A stretch of DNA of 64,000 bases from Teretinema zuelzerae (GTDB taxonomy: Bacteria; Spirochaetota; Spirochaetia; Treponematales; Treponemataceae). A program made the translations under genes and the position numbers. The stretch spans positions 620,001-684,000 of the forward strand of contig NZ_JAINWA010000003.1 of the NCBI RefSeq assembly GCF_021021555.1. The letters run 5' to 3'. Each line of letters opens with the position of its first letter. Within the stretch, counting starts at the first letter, position 1. Shown here piece after piece: positions 5,132 to 51,749 of the stretch. The notes beneath the pieces are model-generated. The model did no database searches and was not told where the DNA came from. It saw only the letters and a program-made list of their open reading frames with translations.

Positions 5132-6619
5132 ATGAAAACCATGATTGATTCGATCGATGGAGAGCTCTGCCTCGAGGCAGGCTCGGGATGGATGAGCAGG
5201 TTCGAAGCGTCTCAGCTTGCATCGGGCGACGTGGTGCTGTGCGACAATCTCGCCGGACAGGCGATGACGCTCAGCTTCAACGGGTCTTTTTTCGCCCAGG
5301 CGGATCTGGTGATTGCAGATCTGGCGGTAGCTGATCCGGCGGCGGCTGATCCGGCGGTAGCTGATCCGGCGGCGGCTGATCCGGCGGTAGCTGATCCGGC
5401 GGCGGAACCCGGCGGAAGCCGAAACGCGAATAAAAAGGCGGTGTGCGCCGCGCGCATCAGAAGCTTGACGCCGAACGCTTGGAGCGCGCCGGTTCCCGAC
5501 CGCGGAAGCGAGGCCTGCGAACTTGTGCCGTTTACGATACGGCTCGCCTGCGCGCGCTACGCGCTGAAAAGCCTCGAGGGCTCAGGAGAGGCGACACTGG
5601 TGCACATGAACACGGCGTACACGGAAGAAGGAAACGCGCGGCTCTATATTGCCGGCTTTCCGGCTGCCCGGGGAACGCTGGTCGTGAGGGATGAAAACTG
5701 GGGAATCAGGATAGACGAAGCCGAAGGAAGTCTCGCGGCGGGAAGCGAAATCCGGACGACCTCGGCCTATCTCCGCGCCGGAGGCGAGGCGCAAAAGGCG
5801 AAAACCTACGACGCCCGCAGGCCCGACTTCGTGACCAAGCCGATGCTGGATCTGTTTTCTGCTGTCCACGAGGAATTCGCGCGGTCGCTCCGGGCGGTGT
5901 ACCCGGCGGCGAAATCAGTCCGGCTGGTCTCGACCGACCAGCTCGCCTTTTACGAATGGGTTGAACCGAAATCCGGCGCAGAACAGGCGGTCAGCATGCT
6001 TTCGATGCGCCCGACCGGCCGGACGGCTCAAAACGAGGCGGCAGGAGAGCTTCCCGCGAAACTCTGCGTGAATCCCGAAATTCGTGCGATTTCGCGCGAT
6101 ACGGGCGATTGCGCGGACTGCGGGCCGGAAGCGGCGCTTCCGCTGTTCGACGACGCCTTCGAAGCCGATTACCGCGCCTGGTGGCGGAACCGCTCGCCGG
6201 GAGAAGACGGCTGCTTCTGCCTCTTGAGCTCAGGTCACGCGCTCGCGCGGATCTTCCCGGACGCCGAGGACCGCCAGCAGTTCGCCGCCTGCCTGCGCAA
6301 CGGCTGGAAGAGATGCCTCGACGCGCGCTTCGCGGAACTCCGGGAATTCCCGGCCGCCGGCGCGTCAAACAATGAGGGAAAAAGCGCGACAGACAAATCG
6401 GCCGCCGGCGCGACAGACAAGTCGACCGCCGGCGCGATAGACAAGTCGACCGCCGGCGCGCCTGGATGGAAAAAAGAAGACCTCTACGAAGTTCTCGATG
6501 CATGGGCGATGATTCTGACGGCGGTATTCGCCGTGGCGACAGATACCGGGGAGGAAACGTTCGAGCTGGCCTATCCGCTTTCCGCCCTCCAGTCTCTGTG
6601 CCCGCGGTTCAGGGCTTAG
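5132..6619 (+). CDS. FliM/FliN-like protein with apparent SpoA-SpoA-FliM(middle) order and two repeat expansions
   Basis: A 495-residue protein. Residues about 20-62 (LASGDVVLCDNL, FNGSFFAQADLVI) and 135-195 (ARLYIAGFPAARGTLVV, ENWGIRI) look like two SpoA/FliN C-terminal domains. Residues about 236-495 resemble the FliM middle (CheC-like) domain: MLDLFSAVHEEFARSL, RLVSTDQLAFYEW, a helix AWAMILTAVFAV and FELAYPLSALQSL. Canonical FliM has the middle domain before SpoA, so the order looks permuted. The first SpoA-like domain is split by an Asp-Pro-Ala repeat (residues 62-95), and a second low-complexity repeat lies near residues 410-445. Start is supported by AAGGAG. It is followed 14 bp later by a Crp-type regulator. 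The domain reading is from motif recall, not a search; it may be a divergent switch component or a type III-like C-ring protein. Confidence 0.55.
   Translation: MKTMIDSIDGELCLEAGSGWMSRFEASQLASGDVVLCDNLAGQAMTLSFNGSFFAQADLVIADLAVADPAAADPAVADPAAADPAVADPAAEPGGSRNANKKAVCAARIRSLTPNAWSAPVPDRGSEACELVPFTIRLACARYALKSLEGSGEATLVHMNTAYTEEGNARLYIAGFPAARGTLVVRDENWGIRIDEAEGSLAAGSEIRTTSAYLRAGGEAQKAKTYDARRPDFVTKPMLDLFSAVHEEFARSLRAVYPAAKSVRLVSTDQLAFYEWVEPKSGAEQAVSMLSMRPTGRTAQNEAAGELPAKLCVNPEIRAISRDTGDCADCGPEAALPLFDDAFEADYRAWWRNRSPGEDGCFCLLSSGHALARIFPDAEDRQQFAACLRNGWKRCLDARFAELREFPAAGASNNEGKSATDKSAAGATDKSTAGAIDKSTAGAPGWKKEDLYEVLDAWAMILTAVFAVATDTGEETFELAYPLSALQSLCPRFRA
5316..5408 (+). repeat. In-frame tandem repeat, Asp-Pro-Ala type
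   Basis: A 30-bp unit (core CTGATCCGGCGGTAGCTGAT) repeated about three times inside the FliM-like gene, encoding alternating VADPA and AADPA pentapeptides. The repeat length is a multiple of three, so copy-number change would not break the frame. Confidence 0.85.
6361..6462 (+). repeat. In-frame tandem repeat, Asp-Lys-Ser-Ala-Gly type
   Basis: Three to four copies of a 24-bp unit (GCGACAGACAAGTCGACCGC and variants) encoding ATDKSTAG-like octapeptides within the C-terminal part of the FliM-like gene. It behaves as a flexible linker insertion between two predicted helices. Confidence 0.75.
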
Positions 6620-6633
6620 CAGTGGAGCGGTTC

Positions 6634-7290
6634 ATGACGGACGGCGAAATTCTGGAGCTCGCTGCTTCGCTGTACGGCGAAGCGGTGCCGGGAAAAGAAC
6701 TCCTGCGCTGCGGAACGCCCAAGACGCACCGGGCGGGGCGCGTGCTCGCCTGCCAGGGCGACGAGGCGACTGAAGCCCACCTTGTGCTCGCCGGCAGGTT
6801 CTTCTGCCGGAAATACCGCACGGACGACAGCCTCATCCCCCTGCCGGCGCTCGAGCGGGGCGCCTGGTGCGGAGCCGCGGAATGCGCGGACGGAGGAGCC
6901 TACCTCTACGAAGCGATCGCGGCGGAGGAAAGCGTGACGCTCTGTTTCGCGCGGCCCAACTTCGCCCTCTTGCGGCGGAGATGCCCGCTCTTTGATTCTG
7001 TCGCGTTGATTCCGTCCCTTTCGCAGGAGCTCAGGCGCCTGCATTCCCGCCTCGCGGACTCAAGCCCTCTCGACCGCCTTGTGAGCTACCTGTTAGCCCA
7101 GCGGCGGAGCATCGGAGGCGTGGAAAAGCAGCGGGTTTCGATTACGCAGGCGGAGCTCGGGGCTGCTATCGGCTGCACCCGGGAGACGGTAAACAAGTAC
7201 CTGGGGCTGCTCGCCGGGCGGGGACTGATCGAACTGGAGCGGAGCTCCGTCGTCGTGCCGAGCTGGGAAAAACTGGCGGATTACCAGTAG
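6634..7290 (+). CDS. Crp/Fnr-family transcriptional regulator
   Basis: A 218-residue regulator. Residues about 10-110 form a divergent cyclic-nucleotide-binding-type beta barrel (RVLACQGDEATEAHLVLAGRFF); it lacks an obvious intact phosphate-binding cassette, and no Fnr-type cysteine cluster is visible, so the ligand is unknown. Residues about 150-215 are a Crp-type winged helix with recognition segment QAELGAAIGCTRETVNKYL. ATG 6634 is preceded by GGAG at good spacing and lies 14 bp after the FliM-like stop codon, so the two genes are probably co-transcribed. Its regulon cannot be read from the window. Confidence 0.85.
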   Translation: MTDGEILELAASLYGEAVPGKELLRCGTPKTHRAGRVLACQGDEATEAHLVLAGRFFCRKYRTDDSLIPLPALERGAWCGAAECADGGAYLYEAIAAEESVTLCFARPNFALLRRRCPLFDSVALIPSLSQELRRLHSRLADSSPLDRLVSYLLAQRRSIGGVEKQRVSITQAELGAAIGCTRETVNKYLGLLAGRGLIELERSSVVVPSWEKLADYQ

Positions 7291-9369: not shown

Positions 9370-9376
9370 CAGCACC

Positions 9377-9774
9377 GGCAGCTAACACGCGGGTCGGCGG
9401 CTTGCACGCGGGGTGGCGGCTTGAGCCTCGCCGGCGGCTCACACGCGGGCCGGCGGCTTGCAGGCGGGCCGGCGGCTTGCACCCGGGCCGGCGGCTGACA
9501 CGCGGGCCGGCAGCTAACACGCGGGCCGGCGGCTTGCACGCGGGTCGGCGGCTTCCACGCGGGCTGGTGGCATGCACGCGGGTCGGCGGCTTGCACCCGG
9601 GGTGGCGGCTTGCACGCGGGGTGGCGGCTTGCACGCGGGGTGGCGGCTCACACGCGGGCTGGCGGCTTGCACGCGGGCTGGCGGCTTGCGCCCGGGCTGG
9701 CGGCTCACACGCGGGCCGGCGGCTTGCACGCGGGGTGGCGGCTTGCACGCGGGTCGGCGGATTGAGCCTCGCAG
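9377..9774. repeat. 19-bp minisatellite array, about 21 copies
   Basis: The stretch between bipA and the QueG-like gene is almost entirely a tandem array with period 19 (one unit is 18). Consensus is GGCGGCTTGCACGCGGGCC, with variants GGCAGCTAACACGCGGGYC and GGCGGCTCACACGCGGGCC; unit starts fall at 9377, 9396, 9415, 9433, 9452, 9471, 9490, 9509 and so on to 9756. Each unit contains the near-palindrome-free core GCTTGCACGCGGGC, which recurs in the EarP gene at 50.9-51.2 kb. A period of 19 is not a multiple of three and no ribosome-binding site precedes an open frame, so the array is probably non-coding. Confidence 0.92.
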
Positions 9775-9816: not shown

Positions 9817-10716
9817 ATGAAAACGAAAGCCGATGATTTTGCCTCTCTGCTGCGCTCCTGGGGCGCAAGCGATGTTTCCTGGACGCGAGTAAGCGACGGA
9901 CCCGGAGGGCTTCCCTGGGCGGTATCGATCGCAGTGAGGCTCTCGGACGCCGTAATTGACGAAATAGAAACAGAACCCACCTATACGTATTTCCATCACT
10001 ACCGGACGGCTAACGCCTTTCTCGACCGCCTCTCTCTGCAGGCGGGCCTGCATGTACAGGCTGAGGGGGCGAGCTACATCGCTGTCGCGGCGTCGCAAAG
10101 CTCGCCCGACTCGCCGTTCGAGGGCCGTTACTCGCACAAGAAGGCCGCCTGCCTGGCCGGGCTCGGCTCGATGGGGCGCAGCGGACTCTTCCTCCACCGC
10201 CGATGGGGTCCCCGCGTAAGGCTCGCGACCCTTTTCACCGACTGGCCGGAGTTGGCCGCGCCTGTTGCGGTAAGAGGGCACAGTGTCGTGCACGGCGACG
10301 CGGAGGCGGTATGCGGACACGCAGGCGGGAGCGCAGAATCCGCAAGTGTAAGCGGGCACGCTTTTGCGGCTAGTTGCTCGGAGGCGGTAAGCGGACACGC
10401 GGGCGGGAGCGCGGAATCCGCAAGTGTAAGCGGGCACGCGGGCGGGAGCGCGGAATCCGCAAGTGTAAGCGGGCACGCTTTTGCGGCTAGTTGCTCGGAG
10501 GCGGTAAGCGGACACGCGGGCGGGATTCTCGCCGAAACGTGCACGCACTGCAGGCTCTGCGTGGATGCCTGCCCGGCAGACGCCATCGGATTCGAATCGG
10601 ATCGAGCCGTATTCCATCCGCAAAAATGCAGTTCGTGGATGAAAAAGGCCTACCAGCATATCGGCCGCGGAGCCGTCTGCGGAATTTGCATGAAAGTCTG
10701 TCCGGCGGGTCGCTGA
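9817..10716 (+). CDS. QueG-like double [4Fe-4S] protein with in-frame repeat insertion
   Basis: A 299-residue protein related to epoxyqueuosine reductase. The N-terminal half shows the QueG-type segment SHKKAACLAGLGSMGRSGL followed by WGPRVRLATLFTDWP. The C-terminus holds a ferredoxin pair: CTHCRLCVDACP and CGICMKVCP. Between them (about residues 158-237) is an insertion of Gly-His-Ala/Ser repeats from tandem DNA duplication, absent from normal family members. The C-terminus stops right after the second cluster, without the HEAT-like extension of true QueG, so this is more likely one of the short QueG-like reductases of unknown substrate than the queuosine enzyme itself. Confidence 0.75.
   Translation: MKTKADDFASLLRSWGASDVSWTRVSDGPGGLPWAVSIAVRLSDAVIDEIETEPTYTYFHHYRTANAFLDRLSLQAGLHVQAEGASYIAVAASQSSPDSPFEGRYSHKKAACLAGLGSMGRSGLFLHRRWGPRVRLATLFTDWPELAAPVAVRGHSVVHGDAEAVCGHAGGSAESASVSGHAFAASCSEAVSGHAGGSAESASVSGHAGGSAESASVSGHAFAASCSEAVSGHAGGILAETCTHCRLCVDACPADAIGFESDRAVFHPQKCSSWMKKAYQHIGRGAVCGICMKVCPAGR
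10284..10526 (+). repeat. In-frame compound tandem repeat (39/78-nt units)
   Basis: Units beginning GCGGTAAGCGGACACGCGGG start at 10306, 10384 and 10501, spacings of 78 and 117, i.e. multiples of a 39-nt sub-unit containing GGAGCGCGGAATCCGCAAG. All spacings are multiples of three. The ACACGCGGGC motif is also part of the 9377 array core, so the two neighbouring repeats may share ancestry. Confidence 0.85.
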
Positions 10717-36443: not shown

Positions 36444-37340
36444 ATGGAAGAAACTCAAGATCGAGGCAGAACGTCCCTGCCCCTTCGCGATTCAACGGGC
36501 GGAGCCCCCGCCGGCGGATTTAAAAGCAGGGGAGCTATCGTCTTCCGCTTTCGTGTCGCCGCGGCGGTACTCGTTGCGATCGCCGCTTTCGGTTTTCTGT
36601 TATTGCGCATGCCCGCTCCGTACTCGAGCGAGTGCGATCTCTCCTACTGGCCCAGCGCGAAGCTCGTCTCGGGCGAGTGGACCTGGGCGCGCACGCCCTC
36701 GGGCATCGACTATAACCTCTACATTCCCTCCGGCGTCGACATCGAGGACCCGGGCGCGGAACTGCCGCTGATCGTCGTCCTCCACGGTTCGACCGGCAAA
36801 GCCATCTCAAAGGACAGATACGGAAGACTCTTCACCCGCGCGGACGCGCAAGCCGCTTTCGGACCAAAGGGAGCCGCCGTAATCGCGCCCCAATCGCGCA
36901 TCGAATATTATACTGATCCCGATTCGTACGCCCGCTTCATCTACAATATATTGATCGCCTATCCCTGCATTTCCCGGAACCGTATAGCCCTCTGGGGGCA
37001 TTCGCAGGGGGCGGCCTTTTCGCTCGAGCTGGGGGCGGCGCATCCGGGACTCTTCCGCGCGATCGCTCCGGGAAGCTCGTATTACAGCGCGTCGCCGGCG
37101 GAACTTTTCCGCCTGGCCCGGCTCAAGGTCTGGTACGCGACCGCCCGCAACGACTCAGGGATCTGGGAGCAGGGGCACCTCACCGGCCGCATCCTCGCCG
37201 CGATCTGCCCGGACTCGCGCTATCTCGAATACCCCACGCGCGGCCACTTCTACATCGAAAACGCAGACGCCTACCCGCCCGGCGATCCCGGCGCGGAAGA
37301 AACCTTTATTTCCTGGCTCGTCCGCGCCCTGGAAGACTGA
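36444..37340 (+). CDS. Membrane-anchored alpha/beta hydrolase (PHB depolymerase/feruloyl-esterase-like)
   Basis: A 298-residue protein: a 32-residue cytoplasmic tail, one membrane helix (VAAAVLVAIAAFGFLLL) and an extracytoplasmic alpha/beta hydrolase. The oxyanion segment is LIVVLHGSTG, the nucleophile is GHSQGA, and histidine GHFYIEN near the end completes the triad; the acid is probably in ARNDSG. The fold resembles polyhydroxybutyrate depolymerase/feruloyl esterases, which fits removal of acyl groups from plant polymers, but substrate is unproven. The tail is encoded by a copy of the dispersed element (36460-36544). ATG 36444 is 1 bp past the MATE stop; ATG 36426 is also in frame. Confidence 0.75.
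   Translation: MEETQDRGRTSLPLRDSTGGAPAGGFKSRGAIVFRFRVAAAVLVAIAAFGFLLLRMPAPYSSECDLSYWPSAKLVSGEWTWARTPSGIDYNLYIPSGVDIEDPGAELPLIVVLHGSTGKAISKDRYGRLFTRADAQAAFGPKGAAVIAPQSRIEYYTDPDSYARFIYNILIAYPCISRNRIALWGHSQGAAFSLELGAAHPGLFRAIAPGSSYYSASPAELFRLARLKVWYATARNDSGIWEQGHLTGRILAAICPDSRYLEYPTRGHFYIENADAYPPGDPGAEETFISWLVRALED
36460..36544 (+). repeat. Dispersed GC-rich element, copy E, inside a coding region
   Basis: It begins ATCGAGGCAGA, contains GGGCGGAGCCCCCG, and ends GCAGGGGAGCTATCGTCTT, matching the boundaries of the intergenic copies. Unlike them it lies after the start codon of the anchored esterase and encodes about 28 residues of its cytoplasmic tail. Confidence 0.6.
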
Positions 37341-37376: not shown

Positions 37377-39002
37377 TTAAAAACCCCTAACCGCCAATTC
37401 ATGCCTGAGCGCCGCCGAAAGGGGCGTTCCGGCAGCTTCGCTTTCGTGTGCAAGCCGGGAAGCCTCGCGGAACCAGGTGCCGGCTTCCTCTTCCTTCCCC
37501 GAATCTGAAAAGCACAGAGCCGCCCGCAGATAACAGCGTGCGATATCTTCTGCGTTTCCGGAATCGATCGACCGCCAGGCGGCGGCCGCCGCGAGAAAGT
37601 CCGAAGCTCCTTGCGAGCGTTTTCCGAAGACCATTTCCGGAATCGCGAGAGAAACGTTTCCCCGGCAGAGCCGCGCCGCAAGCGTTTCGGCGGGAGTCTC
37701 TGCGGTTTCTACAGCGGCGTCCAGATAGACATAGGCGTCCGCGATGATCGAAACAGCGGCGAGCGGGGGCGCGTCGGCTCCCTTAAGGGCGAGCAGGGCT
37801 CCCTTATAGGCCTTCGCCGGCGAAGAATCATGGCCCCGCGAAAAAGCCTCGTCGAGCGCCGCTTCAGCTTCCGCTCTGAAATCCGCGCGGAAGGCAGCCC
37901 CGGCTAAGGCTACAAGATCCTCCGCATCGTTTGATTTCGCGTCGAATGATTCCTTCACGGAAATCCACTCAGCACGGTCTTTCTCGCGTTGCAGCCGTTC
38001 CTCTTCGATCGAGGCGAGCCGAAGGAGCTCCGCAGTTTCAGAATCGTACCGCGCCGAGGAACCGGATCGCCCCGGGGAGGCCTCGTCCTTTTTCCGGGAA
38101 CGCCCGCCCGCCTGAGCCGAACCGGAGTTTCCGCTTAAAGAAACCGCGATCGGAAGGATCCGGGCAGTTTCGAAGTTTTCTTCGTCGAATGAGGAAAGCA
38201 TCTCCTCCTGCAAAGCTTTCGTAGGAGACGCGATGTCGAATACGGCGGGAGTAAAGAAGGAAGCAGCGCCTCCTATGCGGTCCGAGGCAGCTCCGGCGCC
38301 GGCGCTCATGATCGAATCCCTTGACCAGGGAGACCATGCTGCGACATACACGTAGTGGCGCGTCATGGCGGCCGCGTAGAGGAAATGAAGGCGCCGGTCG
38401 CGCAGCGGTATACGGATTCTCAGCGTCTTTCCCCCGTCCAGGGCGGACGCTCGGATCGGAATTTCGATTTCCCCGTCGGCCGAGAAAAATACGCCCTCCG
38501 CGCCCGAAAGAGCGAACGCGTAATCCCAGGGATGGGAGGGATCGAAGGCGAGGCCTTCCGAGCCGCTTCCGCGCGGTTCGGTCAGGCCGGAAGCGTCTCC
38601 GTCGACGTCGATATAGACGCGGACCGCCCGAACAGCTGCGGGCCCCGAGGCGAAGGAAAGAACGAACTGCCAGTATTCGCTTTCCTCCTGCCAACGCGCT
38701 CCCCACACCGGCTCATGAACGGTGTAGCGCAGAAGGTCGAGCGAGCCGGGACGGAAATCCCGGTGAGTCGGATAGACAAGGCCCCCGTAGCCGGAATCGT
38801 CCCCCGCCGGATCGTAAAAGGTGTGCGCGATTTCTCCGCCCGTATAGCTCGGGTCGATTTCGGGAGACAGAACCGAAGCAAGAGAACGCGCGATAATATC
38901 CGAATACATCATGAATGAAGTCGCGCCGCAGAGCGCGGAAGCGAGCATAAGCATCCGGACGGCGTACCAGGAAGCTCCCCCGGCCGCAGGATTTCGCTTC
39001 AT
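37377..39002 (-). CDS. Exported protein with glucodextranase-type DOMON-like domain and TPR-like C-terminus
   Basis: A 541-residue protein with an N-terminal signal anchor (residues 12-32). Residues about 50-290 resemble the C-terminal module of glucodextranase/DOMON-like proteins: DPAGDDSGYGG, YPTHRDFRPGSLDLL, then VRVYIDVDGD and WSPWSRD. Such modules bind haem, sugar or cell-surface glycans. A charged linker (320-400) leads to TPR-like helices (about 400-541). ATG 39002 overlaps the polyferredoxin stop (ATGA). It is the last gene of the 44.0-37.4 kb operon. I cannot tell whether the DOMON module binds haem; no clear Met/His ligand pair is obvious. Confidence 0.65.
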   Translation of the reverse strand: MKRNPAAGGASWYAVRMLMLASALCGATSFMMYSDIIARSLASVLSPEIDPSYTGGEIAHTFYDPAGDDSGYGGLVYPTHRDFRPGSLDLLRYTVHEPVWGARWQEESEYWQFVLSFASGPAAVRAVRVYIDVDGDASGLTEPRGSGSEGLAFDPSHPWDYAFALSGAEGVFFSADGEIEIPIRASALDGGKTLRIRIPLRDRRLHFLYAAAMTRHYVYVAAWSPWSRDSIMSAGAGAASDRIGGAASFFTPAVFDIASPTKALQEEMLSSFDEENFETARILPIAVSLSGNSGSAQAGGRSRKKDEASPGRSGSSARYDSETAELLRLASIEEERLQREKDRAEWISVKESFDAKSNDAEDLVALAGAAFRADFRAEAEAALDEAFSRGHDSSPAKAYKGALLALKGADAPPLAAVSIIADAYVYLDAAVETAETPAETLAARLCRGNVSLAIPEMVFGKRSQGASDFLAAAAAWRSIDSGNAEDIARCYLRAALCFSDSGKEEEAGTWFREASRLAHESEAAGTPLSAALRHELAVRGF

Positions 39003-40192
39003 CTGGGACCTCCGAACGCGATTGAGGCGATGCGGATAAAAGCGTCGGGAATGAATTTTCCCGAGACGATTACAGAGAAGGTGAACGCGGTAAAAACAAA
39101 GAGATATTGGGGATCGAGGATTGCTTGAAAATAGGCGCCGAAACGATTTGACGGAGCGTTCTTGGGAACAGGGGAGCAGCCCTTCGCGCGGATGCGCGCG
39201 TCCGAGACGGCCTGAAAAGAAAACTGGTAGCGTATCGCCCCCGTCGGACAGACGGACAGGCATTCTCCGCATTTCGCGCAGGTGAGCTCGGGCCGGCCTT
39301 TTTCTTCGCGTATCGTTTCCCGATCGATTGCGCAAAAAGAACAGGCTTCGGCGCACTTCATGCAGCCGACGCATTTGTCGACGTCGATGACGACCCTATA
39401 AGAGGAGAAGCGGTCCATGAGGGACTGAAAGGCTCCAAAGGGGCACAGGGCGCTGCACTGGGTTCGCTTGCGCGTCAGCAAAGGAAGAACGATTACCAGG
39501 CCGAGGAAGAGGCCGATGAATATCACCGTCGCGATCAGGCTCGGAAGGTCGGAGATCTCGGCATACTCGGTGACCAGTTTGAAAGGACAAAACCATTCGC
39601 AGTAAACGGACGACATGAAGCCGAGCGACATGAGAACGACGAAAAACAGAAAAGCGAACTGGAATGAGCGAAGGTCCTTATTGCGCGACAGGAGGTTGAC
39701 CCGCGGCTTTTTCAGAATCCGCGAAGCGCCCTCCTCCCAGCCGCCGTAGAAGCATACCCAGCCGCACCAGCCCCTGCCTATCGTAACGGTCGCGATGAAC
39801 CACAGCAGTATCATCCCCATAACGGAGGCAAAATGACCGGTCATCCGCGCGGGAAAGATAACCCTGCCGGTCAGGGCGAACGGCGCGATGATCGCGGGAA
39901 TCACGATTTGGCAGAACGGCACCTCGCCGCTTTGAACCGTATCCTGAGTCAGGCTCATGCTTCCCCGTTCGTCGTACAGGATGCCGATGAATGAAATCAT
40001 GAAAAGAAGGGCGAACGATACCTGGAAGACCCTGCGCCAGCGGGAGTAGGCTCGGGTATGAATCATAGCCGCGAAAACAGCCAGCATCGAAATCGCGTAT
40101 ATCCAGTGGGCGGGAGAGCCCATGTTGCCGGAAAGGGAAAAAAAGAAAACGACGACGCCCATGAACGCCGAGAAAAACGCTGTTACAGCCAT
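38999..40192 (-). CDS. NapH/CcoG-like membrane polyferredoxin
   Basis: A 397-residue inner-membrane iron-sulfur protein. Several helices carry the NapH/NosR/RdxA-type cysteine motifs GWCGWVCFYGG, EWFCPFKL and CSALCPFGAF at the membrane surface. A 2[4Fe-4S] ferredoxin domain follows (CVGCMKCAEACSFCAI and CAKCGECLSVCPTGAI), then one more helix near the C-terminus. Proteins of this class move electrons across or along the membrane to periplasmic reductases, or reduce metal centres. It starts 3 bp after the CcdA-like gene. The last helix after the ferredoxin is an additional feature compared with NapH. Confidence 0.88.
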   Translation of the reverse strand: MAVTAFFSAFMGVVVFFFSLSGNMGSPAHWIYAISMLAVFAAMIHTRAYSRWRRVFQVSFALLFMISFIGILYDERGSMSLTQDTVQSGEVPFCQIVIPAIIAPFALTGRVIFPARMTGHFASVMGMILLWFIATVTIGRGWCGWVCFYGGWEEGASRILKKPRVNLLSRNKDLRSFQFAFLFFVVLMSLGFMSSVYCEWFCPFKLVTEYAEISDLPSLIATVIFIGLFLGLVIVLPLLTRKRTQCSALCPFGAFQSLMDRFSSYRVVIDVDKCVGCMKCAEACSFCAIDRETIREEKGRPELTCAKCGECLSVCPTGAIRYQFSFQAVSDARIRAKGCSPVPKNAPSNRFGAYFQAILDPQYLFVFTAFTFSVIVSGKFIPDAFIRIASIAFGGPR

Positions 40193-40195
40193 AGC

Positions 40196-40945
40196 CTACC
40201 GTCCAAAGGCAAGCGGAATGAATCCCGCGAATATGATGAAATACGCGCCGATCAACAGCTGCGTTGTCCGGGCTATCCTGCGTAGGCTTTCTCTCCGCGC
40301 AGACGCAAAGGGGACACCGGCCAGGGGAAGAAAAAACGGAAGTGTGCCGATATAAAAAAGCGAAAAATAGAGAACGCCCCCTGCGGCCGAAGGCGAAGCG
40401 GCCGAGCGGAAGGCGGCTGTCCAGAATGCCGGGCAGATATGGAAGCCTACCGACATTCCTGAAAGAAAGGACACCCGCCGGTCGCCTCCGCCGATCAAGA
40501 GCGCCGCTGCCGCGAGCGCGTTTCGGCGCGGATTGAGATTCGATTCAAATTCTGTCGGGAACCCGGGGCGGCGCGAGCCGGTTTGTACGGCGGAATCCGG
40601 GGAGAGCGCCGTTTTGCAGGATGCGCAGCGGCCGGCGTAGATTCCTGAAGCCAACACGATGCCGCAGACAAGATAGGCCCCTGAAGAGAGCCGCCGTGCG
40701 AGCACCGGATCGAAATACTCCATCGCCAGCAAACCGAGCCGGGACAGCGCGAATCCGATCGCCCCGTAGGCGGCCAGCCGGCCGAGCAGAAAAAAAGCGA
40801 TCAGGAGAGAGTTCTTTTTATATCCGGATTCATCCCTTCCTAAAAGAAAGGGAAGCAGGACCGGAACGCAGTACATGGCGCACCAGGTCCCGGTGGAAAG
40901 TCCAAGGGCAAGAGGCTCGGCGAACGATGAAAAAAACACTTTCAT
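40196..40945 (-). CDS. CcdA/DsbD-type or TauE/SafE-like membrane protein
   Basis: A 249-residue six-helix membrane protein of the DsbD-transmembrane/TauE-SafE-like group that often sits beside CcoG. The first helix has STGTWCAMYCVPVLLPFLLG, with a CxxxCxP arrangement, and the fourth has GMSVGFHICPAFWTAA, giving the cysteine pair expected of a CcdA-like thiol shuttle. A central CASC motif (GRCASCKTA) lies in the loop. Likely role: passing electrons or copper across the membrane for the neighbouring polyferredoxin. The start is ATG 40945, one base before the TPR gene's stop region. Confidence 0.75.
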   Translation of the reverse strand: MKVFFSSFAEPLALGLSTGTWCAMYCVPVLLPFLLGRDESGYKKNSLLIAFFLLGRLAAYGAIGFALSRLGLLAMEYFDPVLARRLSSGAYLVCGIVLASGIYAGRCASCKTALSPDSAVQTGSRRPGFPTEFESNLNPRRNALAAAALLIGGGDRRVSFLSGMSVGFHICPAFWTAAFRSAASPSAAGGVLYFSLFYIGTLPFFLPLAGVPFASARRESLRRIARTTQLLIGAYFIIFAGFIPLAFGR

Positions 40946-40946
40946 G

Positions 40947-41555
40947 TTATTCCTCGTATCGGGACAAAAGCATTTCGGCTTCCCGGGCTTCCGCCGAGCC
41001 GGGAGACGCCCTTACGCATTCGGAATAACAGGAGACGGCTCCGTCGATGTCCCGCGAACGCGCCAGATAGTGGCCTTCATACAGATACAACGATCCCTGC
41101 CATTCAGCGGAAAACTCCGAACGGCGCGCTTTCAGCCAATCGATGTCTGTTTTCATTTCCTTCCAGCGCTTTACCGGTGAATCGCTGCTCACCCCGTAGC
41201 TGTTGATCATCCGCAAAAACCGAAGATCGACGTTCTCCGGATCCCGTCTCACCGCTTCGTCGATGAGCTTGCCGGATTTCTTTAAAAGGCCAAGCGCCTT
41301 AAGTCCGTTTTTTCCCTCGGCGGCGACCGCCGCCTCGAGGCTGATCGCGCTCCCGTAATAACCGAGCGCGAGCGGATCGCTTTCGATGAGCGGTTCGAGC
41401 AGAGCCTTCGCTCTTTCGATTTTTCCCGCGTCCGAGGCTCCCCGCGCTTCGTCGTGCAGCCGGACTCCTTCAAAGAAATCAGCGCTTCGCTCCGCAGCGG
41501 ACGCGTACATCGCGACGGAACACAGGCAGCAAACAAAAAACGTTCTCATATTCAT
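40947..41555 (-). CDS. Exported TPR-like protein
   Basis: A 202-residue protein with signal peptide (MRTFFVCCLCSVAMYASA) and an alpha-helical repeat body: helices around AKALLEPLIESDPLALGYYG, AVRRDPENVDLRFLR and GAVSCYSECVRASPGSAEAREA look like tetratricopeptide repeats. Probably a periplasmic scaffold. ATG 41555 has AAGGAG 7 nt upstream. The 80-bp gap to the preceding barrel gene shows no terminator, so the operon continues through it. Confidence 0.65.
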   Translation of the reverse strand: MNMRTFFVCCLCSVAMYASAAERSADFFEGVRLHDEARGASDAGKIERAKALLEPLIESDPLALGYYGSAISLEAAVAAEGKNGLKALGLLKKSGKLIDEAVRRDPENVDLRFLRMINSYGVSSDSPVKRWKEMKTDIDWLKARRSEFSAEWQGSLYLYEGHYLARSRDIDGAVSCYSECVRASPGSAEAREAEMLLSRYEE

Positions 41556-41635
41556 CGTCGAACTCCTTAATGGAAAAAAATCTTGTTCATTACAAAACCG
41601 ATCCAGCGCGACCTCGATAATGCGCGCGAAACGTC

Positions 41636-43027
41636 TTAAAAGCCGGCCGTACCCCACAGGATGAACCGCCCGTCTCCCTCGGGGTTCATGCCCCAGGAAG
41701 CGGAGAAATACGCGAACACGGGGCTGTCGAACAGGAGGCGGACAGCCGGTCCTGCGGCGAACCGGGAATCCCGAACCTCGTCGCCGTTAACGGCGGCGTC
41801 GCAAAAAATGAAGGGCACTATCCTGCAGTCCAATCCGGGACCGAAGGCCATTGCGGCAACGGAAAGCCGCAACTCTGCGGAGGCGAGCAAAAAAGAGGGA
41901 AAAGAAAGCTCATCCCTCCCGTAACCGGATCGAACGGAGCGGTCATCGGCGGAAAAGAGATCGAAGCCGAACATGCCTCTTGAAAGCCCTCCGCTCGCCT
42001 TCACGTTGAAGGAGGCGCGTTCCGTTGCATTCCATTTCAGGGCGAAGGAAGCTTCGGCCTTGGCGCTGCCGTCCTGAGGGAAATAATAGATCCTTGCATC
42101 GCAACCGGAAAAAACAAAATTTGAACCCTGCCCGCTCAAATCCGGCGCGTCCGATGCTCCCGTCAGACGGGGACTCCGGTATCGGAAATACGGCTGGAGC
42201 GAAAAAATACGTTCGCCTGAACGGTCGAGTCCCGTCTGAAGCACGGCTGCGCCGACTCCGATTTGATAGTCCGGCGCGGGCGAATACCCCAGCGTGGCGA
42301 CAGCTTCAGCGGAGGGTTGCCCTGCCGGCAGTCCGGTCGCGGCGAGCATTCCGCTCCATTCGCCGGGGGCATACAGGGAAACGGCGACACCCGCGAGAAT
42401 CGGCAGTCCCGCGGCGTTTTCATGCAGAATCTCGGCGCCGTTGCGGTTCCAGCCGGCATAACCGCGCAAAGACAACCGTTCGCCCGAGAGTGCCGAGTAG
42501 CCGAAGTAGCCGAAGGACGCGCCGCCGCCGAACCGCCATAAAAAACCTGATGTCAGCGATACCAGGACGGTACGTCCTGCGCAGCCCTTTTTCGAGGGAA
42601 GAACAACTGCCTGCGCAGCATAGAAAAGACCGCTTTCCAGAAGCCGGATTTCCGCGTCGCGGCACCGGGATTCCAAATCCGCGGCAATATACAGCCGGCC
42701 CGGACGCAGGGCCAAAAAAGACGCTACGATTTGCGGCTTTAACCTCGCAGGCGTTTCGCCGTCGGGTTTCGTTTCCGTTCCAGCTGCAAATTCCGGGCCG
42801 GAGCCGTGTTGATTTGCAGAAAAACCGTCGGCAGACCAGTTGAACATTCGTCCGTCGATTTCAATGCGCACAGCCGAAAGGAGAACCCGTTCCTCTTCGG
42901 CGGCCGACGCGCCCGGCGCAACCGCGAAACAAAAAAGCGCGCACAAACCGGCGCGAAACAAATCGAATCGCGAACGCATCGCTCGTGAAGCGGCGCGTCC
43001 TGCCTCAGGCTGAAACAGGACGCTCAT
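41636..43027 (-). CDS. Outer-membrane beta-barrel protein with one POTRA-like domain
   Basis: A 463-residue exported protein (signal peptide ending APGASA). After a short beta-rich segment, residues about 95-150 (KPQIVASFLALRPGRLYIAA, then DAEIRLLESGLFYAAQAVV) match one POTRA repeat of the BamA/TamA/FhaC class. The rest is a chain of amphipathic strands ending in ILWGTAGF with a C-terminal phenylalanine, the outer-membrane barrel signal. With a single POTRA it is much smaller than BamA (five) and is not the housekeeping assembly factor. ATG 43027 overlaps the HAAS-type gene stop (ATGA). Confidence 0.7.
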   Translation of the reverse strand: MSVLFQPEAGRAASRAMRSRFDLFRAGLCALFCFAVAPGASAAEEERVLLSAVRIEIDGRMFNWSADGFSANQHGSGPEFAAGTETKPDGETPARLKPQIVASFLALRPGRLYIAADLESRCRDAEIRLLESGLFYAAQAVVLPSKKGCAGRTVLVSLTSGFLWRFGGGASFGYFGYSALSGERLSLRGYAGWNRNGAEILHENAAGLPILAGVAVSLYAPGEWSGMLAATGLPAGQPSAEAVATLGYSPAPDYQIGVGAAVLQTGLDRSGERIFSLQPYFRYRSPRLTGASDAPDLSGQGSNFVFSGCDARIYYFPQDGSAKAEASFALKWNATERASFNVKASGGLSRGMFGFDLFSADDRSVRSGYGRDELSFPSFLLASAELRLSVAAMAFGPGLDCRIVPFIFCDAAVNGDEVRDSRFAAGPAVRLLFDSPVFAYFSASWGMNPEGDGRFILWGTAGF

Positions 43028-43686
43028 ACCTCTGCGCGCACCGAGCCCCATGACGCGATCATCCAGGCGTAGGACGCTTCCATGAGAGGCCATGTCAACA
43101 GGCCGACCATCGGCATCCATGCCCACAGAACATTGAGAAATAAATCAGTTCCGAAAAAAGCCGCGTTGACTCCGAAGCACGCAATAGAAATCGCCGCCCA
43201 GCCCAAAAAGGCCAAACGCACGGATTCCTTCCTGTCGATAGATATCATCGCGGCGTCACCCGGTTTGGATCGATAGCGAATCCATGCCGCTCCTGCGGGC
43301 ACCGCATAGCCGAGCCAGCCGGCGGCGGCGACGAACGCGGCGCGGAAGCCGAAACCATGAAACGCGAACCAAATGCCGACTGCGATCATAAACAGGGTTC
43401 CATACGCAAGCCCGCCGGCCATCATGACGGCATCAGTCTTGCGGATGAAAATTTTCCGTTTCTGTCCGGACATGGTTTCCATCAATTCTTCCAAATCTCC
43501 GAGAGACGCAACCGCGCGGTTGAACGCTTCGTCGAAAGACGATCCGGACGCCGTCTCGTCGGCTATCCGTTCCGTCATATGAGTTTGCAGCTCTTCGCGC
43601 TGCTCTGCGATGCGCGGAGTTTCCTGCATGCCGCGAAAAAGTCCGCAAACGTAATAGCGAACGGCGTCCGTCGTTTTTGAATCCAT
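43024..43686 (-). CDS. HAAS-domain membrane protein, partner of PadR
   Basis: A 220-residue protein. The first 85 residues form the helical HAAS/permease-prefix domain (RGMQETPRIAEQREELQTHM ... FNRAVASLGDLEELM), a module that is typically encoded directly after a PadR regulator. Four predicted membrane helices follow. The function of such pairs is unknown, though they usually control a membrane system encoded alongside. ATG 43686 lies 5 bp after the padR stop, with GGGGAG across the stop. Confidence 0.75.
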   Translation of the reverse strand: MDSKTTDAVRYYVCGLFRGMQETPRIAEQREELQTHMTERIADETASGSSFDEAFNRAVASLGDLEELMETMSGQKRKIFIRKTDAVMMAGGLAYGTLFMIAVGIWFAFHGFGFRAAFVAAAGWLGYAVPAGAAWIRYRSKPGDAAMISIDRKESVRLAFLGWAAISIACFGVNAAFFGTDLFLNVLWAWMPMVGLLTWPLMEASYAWMIASWGSVRAEV

Positions 43687-43691
43687 TTCTC

Positions 43692-44027
43692 TCACTCCCC
43701 TATCAAGCGATCTATTATCCGCCGGGCAACAAACCACTCCGCGCGGAGACGATCCAGCGACGCTCTCCCCTCTGCGGTGAGCGAATAGTATTTCCGCCTT
43801 CCGCCCTGGGTTTCTCCGCCCCAATACGACGAAACCCAGCCAAGCCCTTCAAGGCGCCTGAACGCCGAGTAGAGCGAGGGTTCCTTAAGTTCGTACTCGC
43901 CGCCGGAGCGGCTGAGCACTTCCTTGTACACTTCGTACCCGTACCGATCCTGATCGGACAGCAGTCCGAGGATGATGGTATCGATGTGGCCCCTGATTAT
44001 TTCTTTGCCGATTAATTCTTCACTCAT
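43692..44027 (-). CDS. PadR-family transcriptional regulator
   Basis: A 111-residue winged-helix repressor: GHIDTIILGLLSDQDRYGYE and the wing segment ETQGGRRKYYSLTAEGRA are characteristic. PadR proteins usually bind their own promoter and release it with a small-molecule or protein ligand. Here the operator-like inverted repeat 44024-44054 overlaps its start codon. First gene of a seven-gene operon running to 37377, and divergent from an MFS exporter which may share the control. Confidence 0.92.
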   Translation of the reverse strand: MSEELIGKEIIRGHIDTIILGLLSDQDRYGYEVYKEVLSRSGGEYELKEPSLYSAFRRLEGLGWVSSYWGGETQGGRRKYYSLTAEGRASLDRLRAEWFVARRIIDRLIGE

Positions 44028-44054
44028 AGTACTATGTCTGTAATAGTATTATGA
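44024..44054. promoter_or_regulatory. PadR operator candidate
   Basis: Inverted repeat TCATAGTACTAT - 7 nt - ATAGTATTATGA, 11 of 12 positions symmetric. The ATnnTACTAT type is common for PadR sites. The left arm contains the padR start codon, and the right arm is 71 bp before the MFS start. Confidence 0.7.
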
Positions 44055-44088
44055 GACATTTTTTTTGTCAATCTTTTTTAGTACACTC

Positions 44089-50321: not shown

Positions 50322-51749
50322 CTAACCTGAATCGAGGAAAAAAGTCAGCAGGTTGGCCGCCAGATTTCCGGTTTTTCCCGCTTCCGCAGCCATTTTACGG
50401 AACGATTCGCTTAAACTCCGGCCGCAATCCGGTTCGGAAACCGCGCAGGATCTGAAAAACCTGATCAAATCCTCCTCCCCGGGAACCGCCGCGTTAAAAT
50501 CCCATAGAATTCTCTCCCACAACGCAAAGTCGGCTGTAGCGAAAAAGGGGCGGGCAAAGTCGAGAAATGCTTTAATCTTGGCATGATGGCCGTCTCCGCC
50601 GAACGGGTAACACTCCCAGACAAAGGGTTTCCCCGACAATATCGCGCGCGACCAGCTCTCCTCGCCCCGCACGATCAACAGGTCCGCCGAATCGAAAACC
50701 GAATCCCATTCGAGCTGGGGAAGCATGGGAAGTTCTTCGACCGGGAAGGGACGGCCCGAACTGTTCCATGCGTCGAGAAAGGGCGAAGCGCTTCGCCCCG
50801 CCGCGAGAAGAACGCGCACCGGCCGATCGGCGTGAAAGGCCTTCAAGGCCGACGCAAGCGAAGAAAAGTCGTGCTCGTAGCTGAATAATAGAATTCTGAA
50901 CTCGCTGCCGCCCGCGTGCAAGCTGCCGTCGGCGTGCAAGCTGCCGCCGGCGTGCAAGCTGCCGTCGGCGTGCGTTCTGCCGCCGACGTGCAAGCTGCTG
51001 TCGGCGTGCAAGCTGCCGTCGGCGTACAAGCTGCCGTCGGCGTGCAAGCTGCCGCCGGCGTGCAAGCTTCCGCCGGCGTACAAGCTGCCGTCGGCCTGCA
51101 AGCTGCCGTCGGCGTGCAAGCTGCCGTCGGCGTGCAAGCTGCCGCCCGCGTGAGATCTGCCGCCCGCGTGCAAGCTGCCGCCTCCGTGAAAGTCGTCCTC
51201 GCTGCGAGGCGCGCTTTCCTCCGAAGGCAGAAGCCCGCCGGTTCCGCTGATGAAACCGGGCATGAACACGTATTTGCGAACTTGAGGAGACCGCGTGAGA
51301 GACGGCAAAAGATGGAAATCCCGCGCCCAGCTCTCGGCGGTTAGGTACTCGAGATTCAGCAGCACGCGAATGCCGTCGTCATCTGCATCGAACAGTATTT
51401 CCTCGAACCACTCGGGCCTTCCGCACGCGTAGCACTCCAGAATATAGCGCGGCCGCCGGGCGCTGAACTCTGCCAAAGCCTCGGGACCCGGATCGTTCCA
51501 GGATGCGACTAGCCAATCGGGAGAGCCGGAGTCAGGCGCCGGGACAGTCTGGAAACCGAACCCTGCGCGAACAGCCGGATAGAGAGCTGAAAAAGCCGCG
51601 AGATCGTCCACTATCAATCTGAGACGGAGCGGATCGCCGGCGCCGCCGGGAGTTCCTGAGCGGGCGCGGCACAACGCGCGGGAGAGCCGGTATACGAAGC
51701 CGATATCGCCGAGATTGTCGACTACGGAGCAGAGAATATCAATCGTCAC
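50322..51749 (-). CDS. earP: EF-P arginine rhamnosyltransferase with a hexapeptide-repeat insertion
   Basis: Transfers rhamnose from dTDP-rhamnose to Arg32 of EF-P. GT-B enzyme of 475 residues; typical EarP is about 375-385. The N-terminal catalytic segment VDNLGDIGFVYRL carries D11 and D15, and the C-terminal nucleotide site VRGEESWSRA and WECYPFGGDGH is intact. The excess is a block of 15 hexapeptides (GGSLHA/DGSLHA) at residues about 189-283, between the two Rossmann domains, encoded by a tandem array. Start is GTG 51749, overlapping the serpin 3' end by 11 bp. Core motifs argue that the enzyme still works with the insert as a surface loop. Confidence 0.92.
   Translation of the reverse strand: MTIDILCSVVDNLGDIGFVYRLSRALCRARSGTPGGAGDPLRLRLIVDDLAAFSALYPAVRAGFGFQTVPAPDSGSPDWLVASWNDPGPEALAEFSARRPRYILECYACGRPEWFEEILFDADDDGIRVLLNLEYLTAESWARDFHLLPSLTRSPQVRKYVFMPGFISGTGGLLPSEESAPRSEDDFHGGGSLHAGGRSHAGGSLHADGSLHADGSLQADGSLYAGGSLHAGGSLHADGSLYADGSLHADSSLHVGGRTHADGSLHAGGSLHADGSLHAGGSEFRILLFSYEHDFSSLASALKAFHADRPVRVLLAAGRSASPFLDAWNSSGRPFPVEELPMLPQLEWDSVFDSADLLIVRGEESWSRAILSGKPFVWECYPFGGDGHHAKIKAFLDFARPFFATADFALWERILWDFNAAVPGEEDLIRFFRSCAVSEPDCGRSLSESFRKMAAEAGKTGNLAANLLTFFLDSG
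50912..51192 (-). repeat. In-frame 18-bp tandem array inside earP
   Basis: About 15 copies of an 18-bp unit (minus strand GCAGCTTGCACGCCGACG and variants) encoding GGSLHA or DGSLHA. Units containing GGCAGCTTGCACGCGGGC match 16 to 17 positions of the 19-bp units of the intergenic array at 9377. Here the period is 18, which keeps the reading frame. Confidence 0.9.

Follow-up and report, generated by a model that had tools for sequence, protein, structure and literature searches.

Many anaerobes have no quinones, cytochromes or oxidases and must still move reducing power across the membrane. In Clostridium ljungdahlii, described as synthesizing neither haem nor quinones, the operon CLJU_RS13020-13030 encodes a membrane protein of the DsbD superfamily, a NapH-resembling iron-sulfur membrane protein and a periplasmic protein, and is considered a putative oxidoreductase in print (PMC5640608). 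The same account reports that the trio is upregulated with syngas and H2/CO2 (lithotrophic growth) and gives its substrate as unknown (PMC5640608). In another source, NapH-like systems are defined by flavinylation, with genes for flavin mononucleotide (FMN)-binding proteins or ApbE alongside, and DsbD systems are treated apart; there, DsbD-family proteins generally hand electrons to extracytosolic proteins, and DsbD-like reductases serve periplasmic folding (PMC8238504). CcoG, also a membrane polyferredoxin, reportedly acts as a cupric reductase (PMC8267372). An operon containing a trio of the kind described for C. ljungdahlii is found in a 64,000-nucleotide stretch of the spirochaete Teretinema zuelzerae (contig NZ_JAINWA010000003.1, positions 620,001 to 684,000), hereafter the window.

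The operon consists of seven genes, in which a core trio (a DsbD_2 thiol protein, a NapH-like polyferredoxin and a membrane-anchored third protein of DOMON type) is preceded by a regulator pair, a predicted outer-membrane barrel and an exported TPR protein. We hold, with a probability of roughly 55%, that the seven genes form one operon under PadR control and encode a transmembrane redox module in which electrons pass from the polyferredoxin to the DsbD_2 thiols. Of the mechanisms considered, this transfer between the two membrane proteins has the best support; which way the electrons flow, what accepts them and what the barrel does are inferred. The features, in order of transcription, are the following.

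44025 to 44071, minus strand: TTGACA-17-TACTAT promoter with a TACTAT/ATAGTA dyad reaching the PadR start, likely the PadR operator (promoter scan)
43692 to 44027, minus strand: PadR regulator, first gene (PF03551, 4.3e-21)
43024 to 43686, minus strand: HAAS-type (permease prefix domain 1) membrane protein, partner of PadR (perm_prefix_1, NF038403, 3.5e-10)
41636 to 43027, minus strand: predicted outer-membrane barrel with a single N-terminal POTRA domain, a spirochaete add-on (PF07244 in 5 of 15 family members, best 4.2e-05)
40947 to 41555, minus strand: exported TPR protein, a spirochaete add-on (TPR_14, 2.8e-07; adjoins the barrel gene in 14 of 14 barrel loci)
40196 to 40945, minus strand: DsbD_2 (CcdA-like) thiol membrane protein, core gene 1 (PF13386, 5.6e-14)
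38999 to 40192, minus strand: NapH-like polyferredoxin, core gene 2 (Fer4_5, 7.2e-12; cysteine set; structure model)
37377 to 39002, minus strand: membrane-anchored Glucodextran_C (DOMON-type) and TPR protein, core gene 3 in its spirochaete form (PF09985, 6.7e-23)

The trio is conserved far beyond the window. In a first set of 59 genomes, the window's own included, a full-length NapH-like ortholog is present in eight other genomes, and the DOMON protein occurs in the same nine (counting the window's). A wider scan of the NapH-like core against 84,980 species genomes returned 206 encoded relatives, the best 80 of which were retained and provide the counts of module loci. Its search patterns used C143 and C147, which were thereby selected for; no such selection applied to C94, C198, C202 or the genes alongside. 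The third gene lies immediately downstream of the NapH-like gene in all 80 loci. The DsbD_2 gene is immediately upstream in 75 and in one locus, L090, lies behind the third gene; in the other four (L076, L102, L113 and L125) its position falls beyond the end of the contig. By record titles the core trio spans at least nine phyla, with carriers among spirochaetes, Bacillota, Bacteroidales, deltaproteobacteria, Phycisphaerae, Verrucomicrobia, Chloroflexota, Acidobacteria and Delongbacteria, including Treponema bryantii and Clostridium carboxidivorans. The core thus appears to be a widespread, barely noticed three-protein redox module of anaerobes, extended in these spirochaetes towards the cell surface. 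A first-pass annotation of this DNA had called the operon one with no described counterpart, a statement overtaken by these loci and by the trio in print for C. ljungdahlii; its suggested gene-neighbourhood search shows that the genes of the trio are not scattered.

Co-occurrence of the two membrane proteins is close to perfect. Among 390 genomes of the taxonomic order, the NapH-like profile is found in 32 at E<=1e-35, and the DsbD_2 profile in 93 at E<=1e-8, 33 of them strong at E<=1e-20. These 33 are the 32 NapH-like genomes plus one (G581) with a fragment of 86 positions. The remaining 60 matches are weak and, apart from two in frames of 280 and 365 residues, fall in frames of about 450-850 residues, as ordinary DsbD proteins would. 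The window's genome has a second, weak match of its own on contig 3 (779727-780338, L182), in a 492-residue frame about 120 kb from the operon, which is probably an ordinary DsbD-type protein.

Conserved cysteines mark both membrane proteins. The window DsbD_2 protein passes the PF13386 gathering cut-off (52.9 bits against 24.9), and C22, C26, C110 and C171 are invariant in 24 of 24 aligned rows, drawn from 76 sequences found; its profile has no match among solved sequences. Fifteen cysteines are conserved in the NapH-like protein. Eight belong to a 2[4Fe-4S] ferredoxin, four form the pairs C143/C147 and C246/C250, and the other three are C94, C198 and C202. All 15 are kept in 93 of 94 aligned rows, which overlap between collections and do not stand for 94 independent genomes; the eight ferredoxin cysteines and both pairs are kept in all 94. 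Positive charges cluster in segments 47-53, 139-170 and 241-360, so that the ferredoxin and C143/C147/C246/C250 are predicted on the inner side and C94/C198/C202 on the periplasmic side. The sole exception among the rows, L048, loses only the latter three (N94, I198 and N202). In that locus about 13 nucleotides separate the TPR gene from the NapH-like gene that follows it, leaving no room for a DsbD_2 gene, and the DsbD_2 profile has no match anywhere in the genome, which is 77% complete. Because these cysteines are lost in the member without DsbD_2, C94/C198/C202 is the candidate site of hand-over to DsbD_2.

A control set of 21 NapH-type paralogs, more distantly related, was taken from the same relatives. 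C143, C147 and C250 are present in all of them, the 198/202 pair in nine and C94 in none, and no DsbD_2 gene occurs within flanks of about 1.5 kb (0 of 21). Absent from every control, C94 is the special mark of the module's NapH-like protein; the 198/202 pair is, by alignment, common to another NapH-type subgroup. The structure model is confident (predicted local distance difference test, pLDDT, 88.9); compared with solved structures, the stretch from about residue 264 to 329 is recognized as a ferredoxin. NapH and MauN proteins are defined by two CX3C motifs at the membrane and 2x[4Fe-4S] ferredoxin motifs, and the window protein has both. Its scores stay under the family cut-offs, with 68.3 bits against 213.05 for TIGR02163 (NapH/MauN) and 72.8 against 234 for NF007013 (NapH).

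Electron transfer through the two proteins is favoured since the core order is kept across phyla, the co-occurrence of DsbD_2 and NapH-like genes is near perfect and both cysteine sets are conserved. The topology predicted from positive charges, the cysteine loss in L048, the paralog control, the rarity of oxidase, cytochrome-c and quinone genes in module-bearing genomes and the rise of the C. ljungdahlii trio in lithotrophic growth (PMC5640608) also speak for it. An electron or thiol chain in the envelope, as the first-pass annotation had it, is the most natural reading of the locus. A low-potential cytosolic donor, either reduced ferredoxin or a flavoenzyme, would reduce the two [4Fe-4S] clusters of the ferredoxin domain. 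From there electrons would travel via C143/C147/C246/C250 at the inner face, probably a cluster, to the periplasmic C94/C198/C202 site, which would exchange them with the thiols C22/C26/C110/C171 of DsbD_2. These thiols may in turn supply an acceptor outside the cytoplasm, close to where the third protein is anchored. In the window's lineage the Glucodextran_C and TPR domains, the separate TPR protein and the POTRA barrel could carry the reach of the module across the periplasm to the outer membrane.

CcoG is paired with a DsbD_2/TauE-like gene in the assembly of cbb3 oxidase. A role of this kind was ruled out from the genomic background of 18 module-bearing genomes, which were searched for COX1, PF01578, UbiA and ApbE. 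The haem-copper oxidase family COX1 is found in none of the 18 (the control was positive in 8 of 14), in agreement with the earlier remark that no oxidase accompanies the pair. The cytochrome-c assembly family PF01578 exceeds its cut-off in two genomes, with one further weak match full of stops, and UbiA does so in six. All three are absent from the window's genome (97% complete), so that a cbb3, cytochrome-c or quinol role is excluded or unlikely in this organism. A quinol-driven NapH role is therefore disfavoured here, although UbiA is present in those six genomes, and a CcdA of cytochrome c maturation finds assembly genes in just the two genomes above, the window's not among them. ApbE is encoded in 17 of the 18, in the window's case about 1.27 Mb from the operon; no FMN-binding or ApbE family is detected among the seven proteins at E<=0.1, which sets aside a flavinylated NapH-like system. 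An ArsEFG-type arsenic system was dropped as the DsbD_2 proteins of the window and of L118 have no NCBIfam match.

These genomes also bear on metal handling. The NapH-like protein might reduce a metal, as CcoG does with Cu(II), and DsbD_2, through the cysteines of its CxxxC and CPP motifs, might carry it or load it into an extracytoplasmic metalloprotein. Four invariant DsbD_2 cysteines could act as metal ligands, and the cupric reductase activity reported for CcoG (PMC8267372) offers a precedent. Such a role is unlikely in view of the missing oxidase in 18 of 18 genomes, the score of 22 bits against a cut-off of 316.7 for the CcoG model, and the Pfam search, in which none of the seven proteins matches a P-type ATPase, Sco or metallochaperone family.

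The third protein occurs in two types, with 49 loci encoding a Glucodextran_C-type protein and 31 a short form of about 150 residues. Three examples of the latter were scanned and gave no significant Pfam or NCBIfam family. The two types are related: their profiles align over the anchor and the sandwich (98.2%, 4.5e-14; 96.1% with a second alignment). The window protein passes the PF09985 cut-off (81.8 bits against 22), and its model, a confident one (pLDDT 90.7), has helices at the N terminus, then a sandwich (49-289) and, from about residue 338, TPR repeats. The sandwich matches glucodextranase domain C (1ug9) with a Z score of 22.5 and a root-mean-square deviation of 2.8 over 216 aligned residues. 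The first-pass annotation had asked for a haem or a sugar site in this domain: the fold is confirmed, with glucodextranase as best match, and no haem-binding chain is among the structural matches listed, which does not by itself rule out a haem DOMON. No cysteine is conserved in the third protein, suggesting a docking or substrate-binding subunit and not a thiol carrier.

Some loci depart from these forms. In L161 (genome G159, about 6780-6983) a frame of about 68 residues with one membrane helix lies between the NapH-like and DsbD_2 genes and is possibly a minimal third component. The third-gene place in L158 is occupied by a reverse-strand fragment that by eye resembles a uroporphyrinogen-decarboxylase-type protein, a possible case of module decay. 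L090, on a contig titled Deltaproteobacteria, combines a long Glucodextran_C-type third protein with two TPR proteins and the displaced DsbD_2 gene, which may reflect horizontal transfer or a mislabelled metagenome-assembled genome. A plasmid search for the NapH-like protein gave no match.

The same chain could also run inward, from an external donor such as a cathode or reduced compounds to cytosolic carriers. We regard this as quite unlikely; rumen treponemes are not known to be electrotrophs, which counts against it. Induction of the C. ljungdahlii trio with syngas and H2/CO2 speaks for it, and its authors raise uptake of electrical current (PMC5640608). Against it stands the generally outward flow in the DsbD family, towards extracytosolic proteins, as described in PMC8238504.

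Organization as one operon is well supported. A reading-frame check of the window confirms seven minus-strand open reading frames as one block at 37377-44027, starting at 44027 (PadR), 43686 (HAAS), 43027 (barrel), 41555 (TPR), 40945 (DsbD_2), 40192 (NapH-like) and 39002 (DOMON). Four-bp ATGA overlaps join HAAS to barrel and NapH-like to DOMON, and other junctions leave gaps of 5, 1 and 3 nucleotides; the tight packing noted at first pass thus holds except between barrel and TPR, where the gap is 80 nucleotides. The order PadR-HAAS-barrel-TPR-DsbD_2-NapH-DOMON is entire in four of the eight relatives (L041, L043, L044 and L045), two others are cut by contig ends (L042 and L046), L047 lacks PadR and HAAS, and L048 lacks DsbD_2. 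The only good promoter match in the scan, TTGACA-17-TACTAT, lies ahead of PadR, with a dyad running into the start codon. A TTGACA-type promoter occupies the same place in five of five upstream regions compared; the dyad, clean in four of them, is degenerate in L043. Promoter and dyad directly before PadR, kept in relatives, suggest autoregulation. The earlier proposal of a single operon agrees with the frames, coordinates, head promoter and order in relatives.

An opposing explanation takes the locus as three unrelated units side by side: a core redox trio, a barrel/TPR unit and a PadR/HAAS unit. The parts do vary independently between lineages, and the 80-nucleotide gap ahead of TPR would suit a boundary. 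Given the overlapping genes, the single strong promoter match at the head and the identical seven-gene order in four other genomes, this is highly improbable. The regulators illustrate the variation: PadR with HAAS is found in four of the 80 loci and LytTR with DUF3021 in 34, so that the regulator pair was exchanged between lineages while the trio was kept. Treponema-type versions (L054, L061 and 32 other loci) end with LytTR and DUF3021 in place of PadR and HAAS.

The barrel is an add-on to the module and is always accompanied by the TPR protein: it is present in 14 of 80 loci, each time beside TPR, which occurs without it in four. The window barrel protein has no Pfam match of its own, and none of the 15 family members matches the Omp85 barrel PF01103 at E<=1. 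Profile alignment to BamA of relatives reaches 6.1%, a VRGF-like motif and a C-terminal resemblance are seen by eye only, and a search against solved sequences gives one chance-level match. No barrel is seen in 35 of the 49 loci with a DOMON-type third protein, 20 of which extend at least 4.5 kb upstream of the NapH-like gene, nor in any of the 31 with the short type. This weakens the earlier suggestion that export or assembly of the DOMON protein is the barrel's task.

Redox housekeeping for outer-membrane assembly would give the barrel another purpose. The module would then keep the thiols of barrel clients reduced, while barrel and TPR insert a specific surface protein. The POTRA and TPR genes share one operon with the module, and DsbD-like reductases act in periplasmic folding according to PMC8238504. 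This explanation is very unlikely, as no thioredoxin family is found among the seven proteins and 66 of 80 module loci show no barrel, including those of Clostridium, which has no outer membrane.

Several observations weigh against the preferred reading of polyferredoxin-to-DsbD_2 transfer and its extension outward. The distribution is patchy, with the NapH-like gene in 17 of 392 genomes of the phylum (E<=1e-40). G208 (locus L158) keeps DsbD_2 and NapH-like genes intact with the third gene gone, and G159 has just the frame of about 68 residues, counted from its first Met, in that place. Joint loss of the cysteines and DsbD_2 is one event in one lineage, seen in one genome of 77% completeness. 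The membrane part of the NapH-like model has no match among solved structures, and its cofactors are predicted. Most relatives have neither barrel nor TPR, which leaves the outer-membrane step the weakest.

If the transfer holds, a conserved trio joining iron-sulfur clusters to thiols would be a separate route for transmembrane reducing power, and the covariation of three periplasmic cysteines with a partner gene would provide a direct, testable site of hand-over. A broader proposal is possible, though doubtful: a wire from polyferredoxin to DsbD thiols, free of quinone, haem and flavin, may operate in anaerobes of many phyla. In these spirochaetes a TPR scaffold and a POTRA barrel may extend it so that a substrate at the outer membrane or surface is reduced, or is both bound and reduced. 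The spirochaete extension would then be a candidate path leading from cytosol to outer membrane.

The neighbours of the operon are an MFS-like gene, divergent from it and running from 44065, and a hydrolase-like gene, convergent with it and ending at 37340, both named by sequence reading alone; a homolog of the latter is again convergent downstream of the operon in L041. Rfam and tRNA scans of the window gave no matches. Elsewhere in the window, GC-rich tandem repeats in or beside reading frames yield low-complexity translations at 9375-9764 (19 bp x 20.6), 10309-10525 (39/117 bp), 5318-5405 (15/30 bp) and 50904-51182 (18 bp x 15.5).

A literature search, with most subscription papers outside its coverage, found no account of the spirochaete seven-gene form. 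The nearest described system, the C. ljungdahlii trio (PMC5640608), has the same order and description as the core here and is likened to it by description, not by sequence; the clostridial sequences compared were those of C. carboxidivorans, C. drakei and C. muellerianum. Unlike the window operon, it is described in its section of that account with no mention of a barrel, TPR, Glucodextran_C, PadR or HAAS. Flavinylated NapH-like systems, as PMC8238504 describes them, share with the module a NapH-type membrane polyferredoxin as the transmembrane step, whereas the seven proteins here include no FMN-binding or ApbE protein. CcoG and the NapH-like protein are both membrane polyferredoxins with CX3C motifs; the latter differs in the absence of an oxidase, a score under the CcoG cut-off and the additional periplasmic C94. 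DsbD/CcdA reductases and the window DsbD_2 protein belong to the same PF13386 family and have a conserved in-membrane cysteine pair, but the window protein has four invariant cysteines, a fixed polyferredoxin partner and neither a thioredoxin domain nor a thioredoxin gene in its operon. Finally, residues 49-289 of the DOMON protein share the fold of glucodextranase domain C (1ug9), yet here this domain is joined to no glycosidase and is instead held between an N-terminal anchor and C-terminal TPR repeats.

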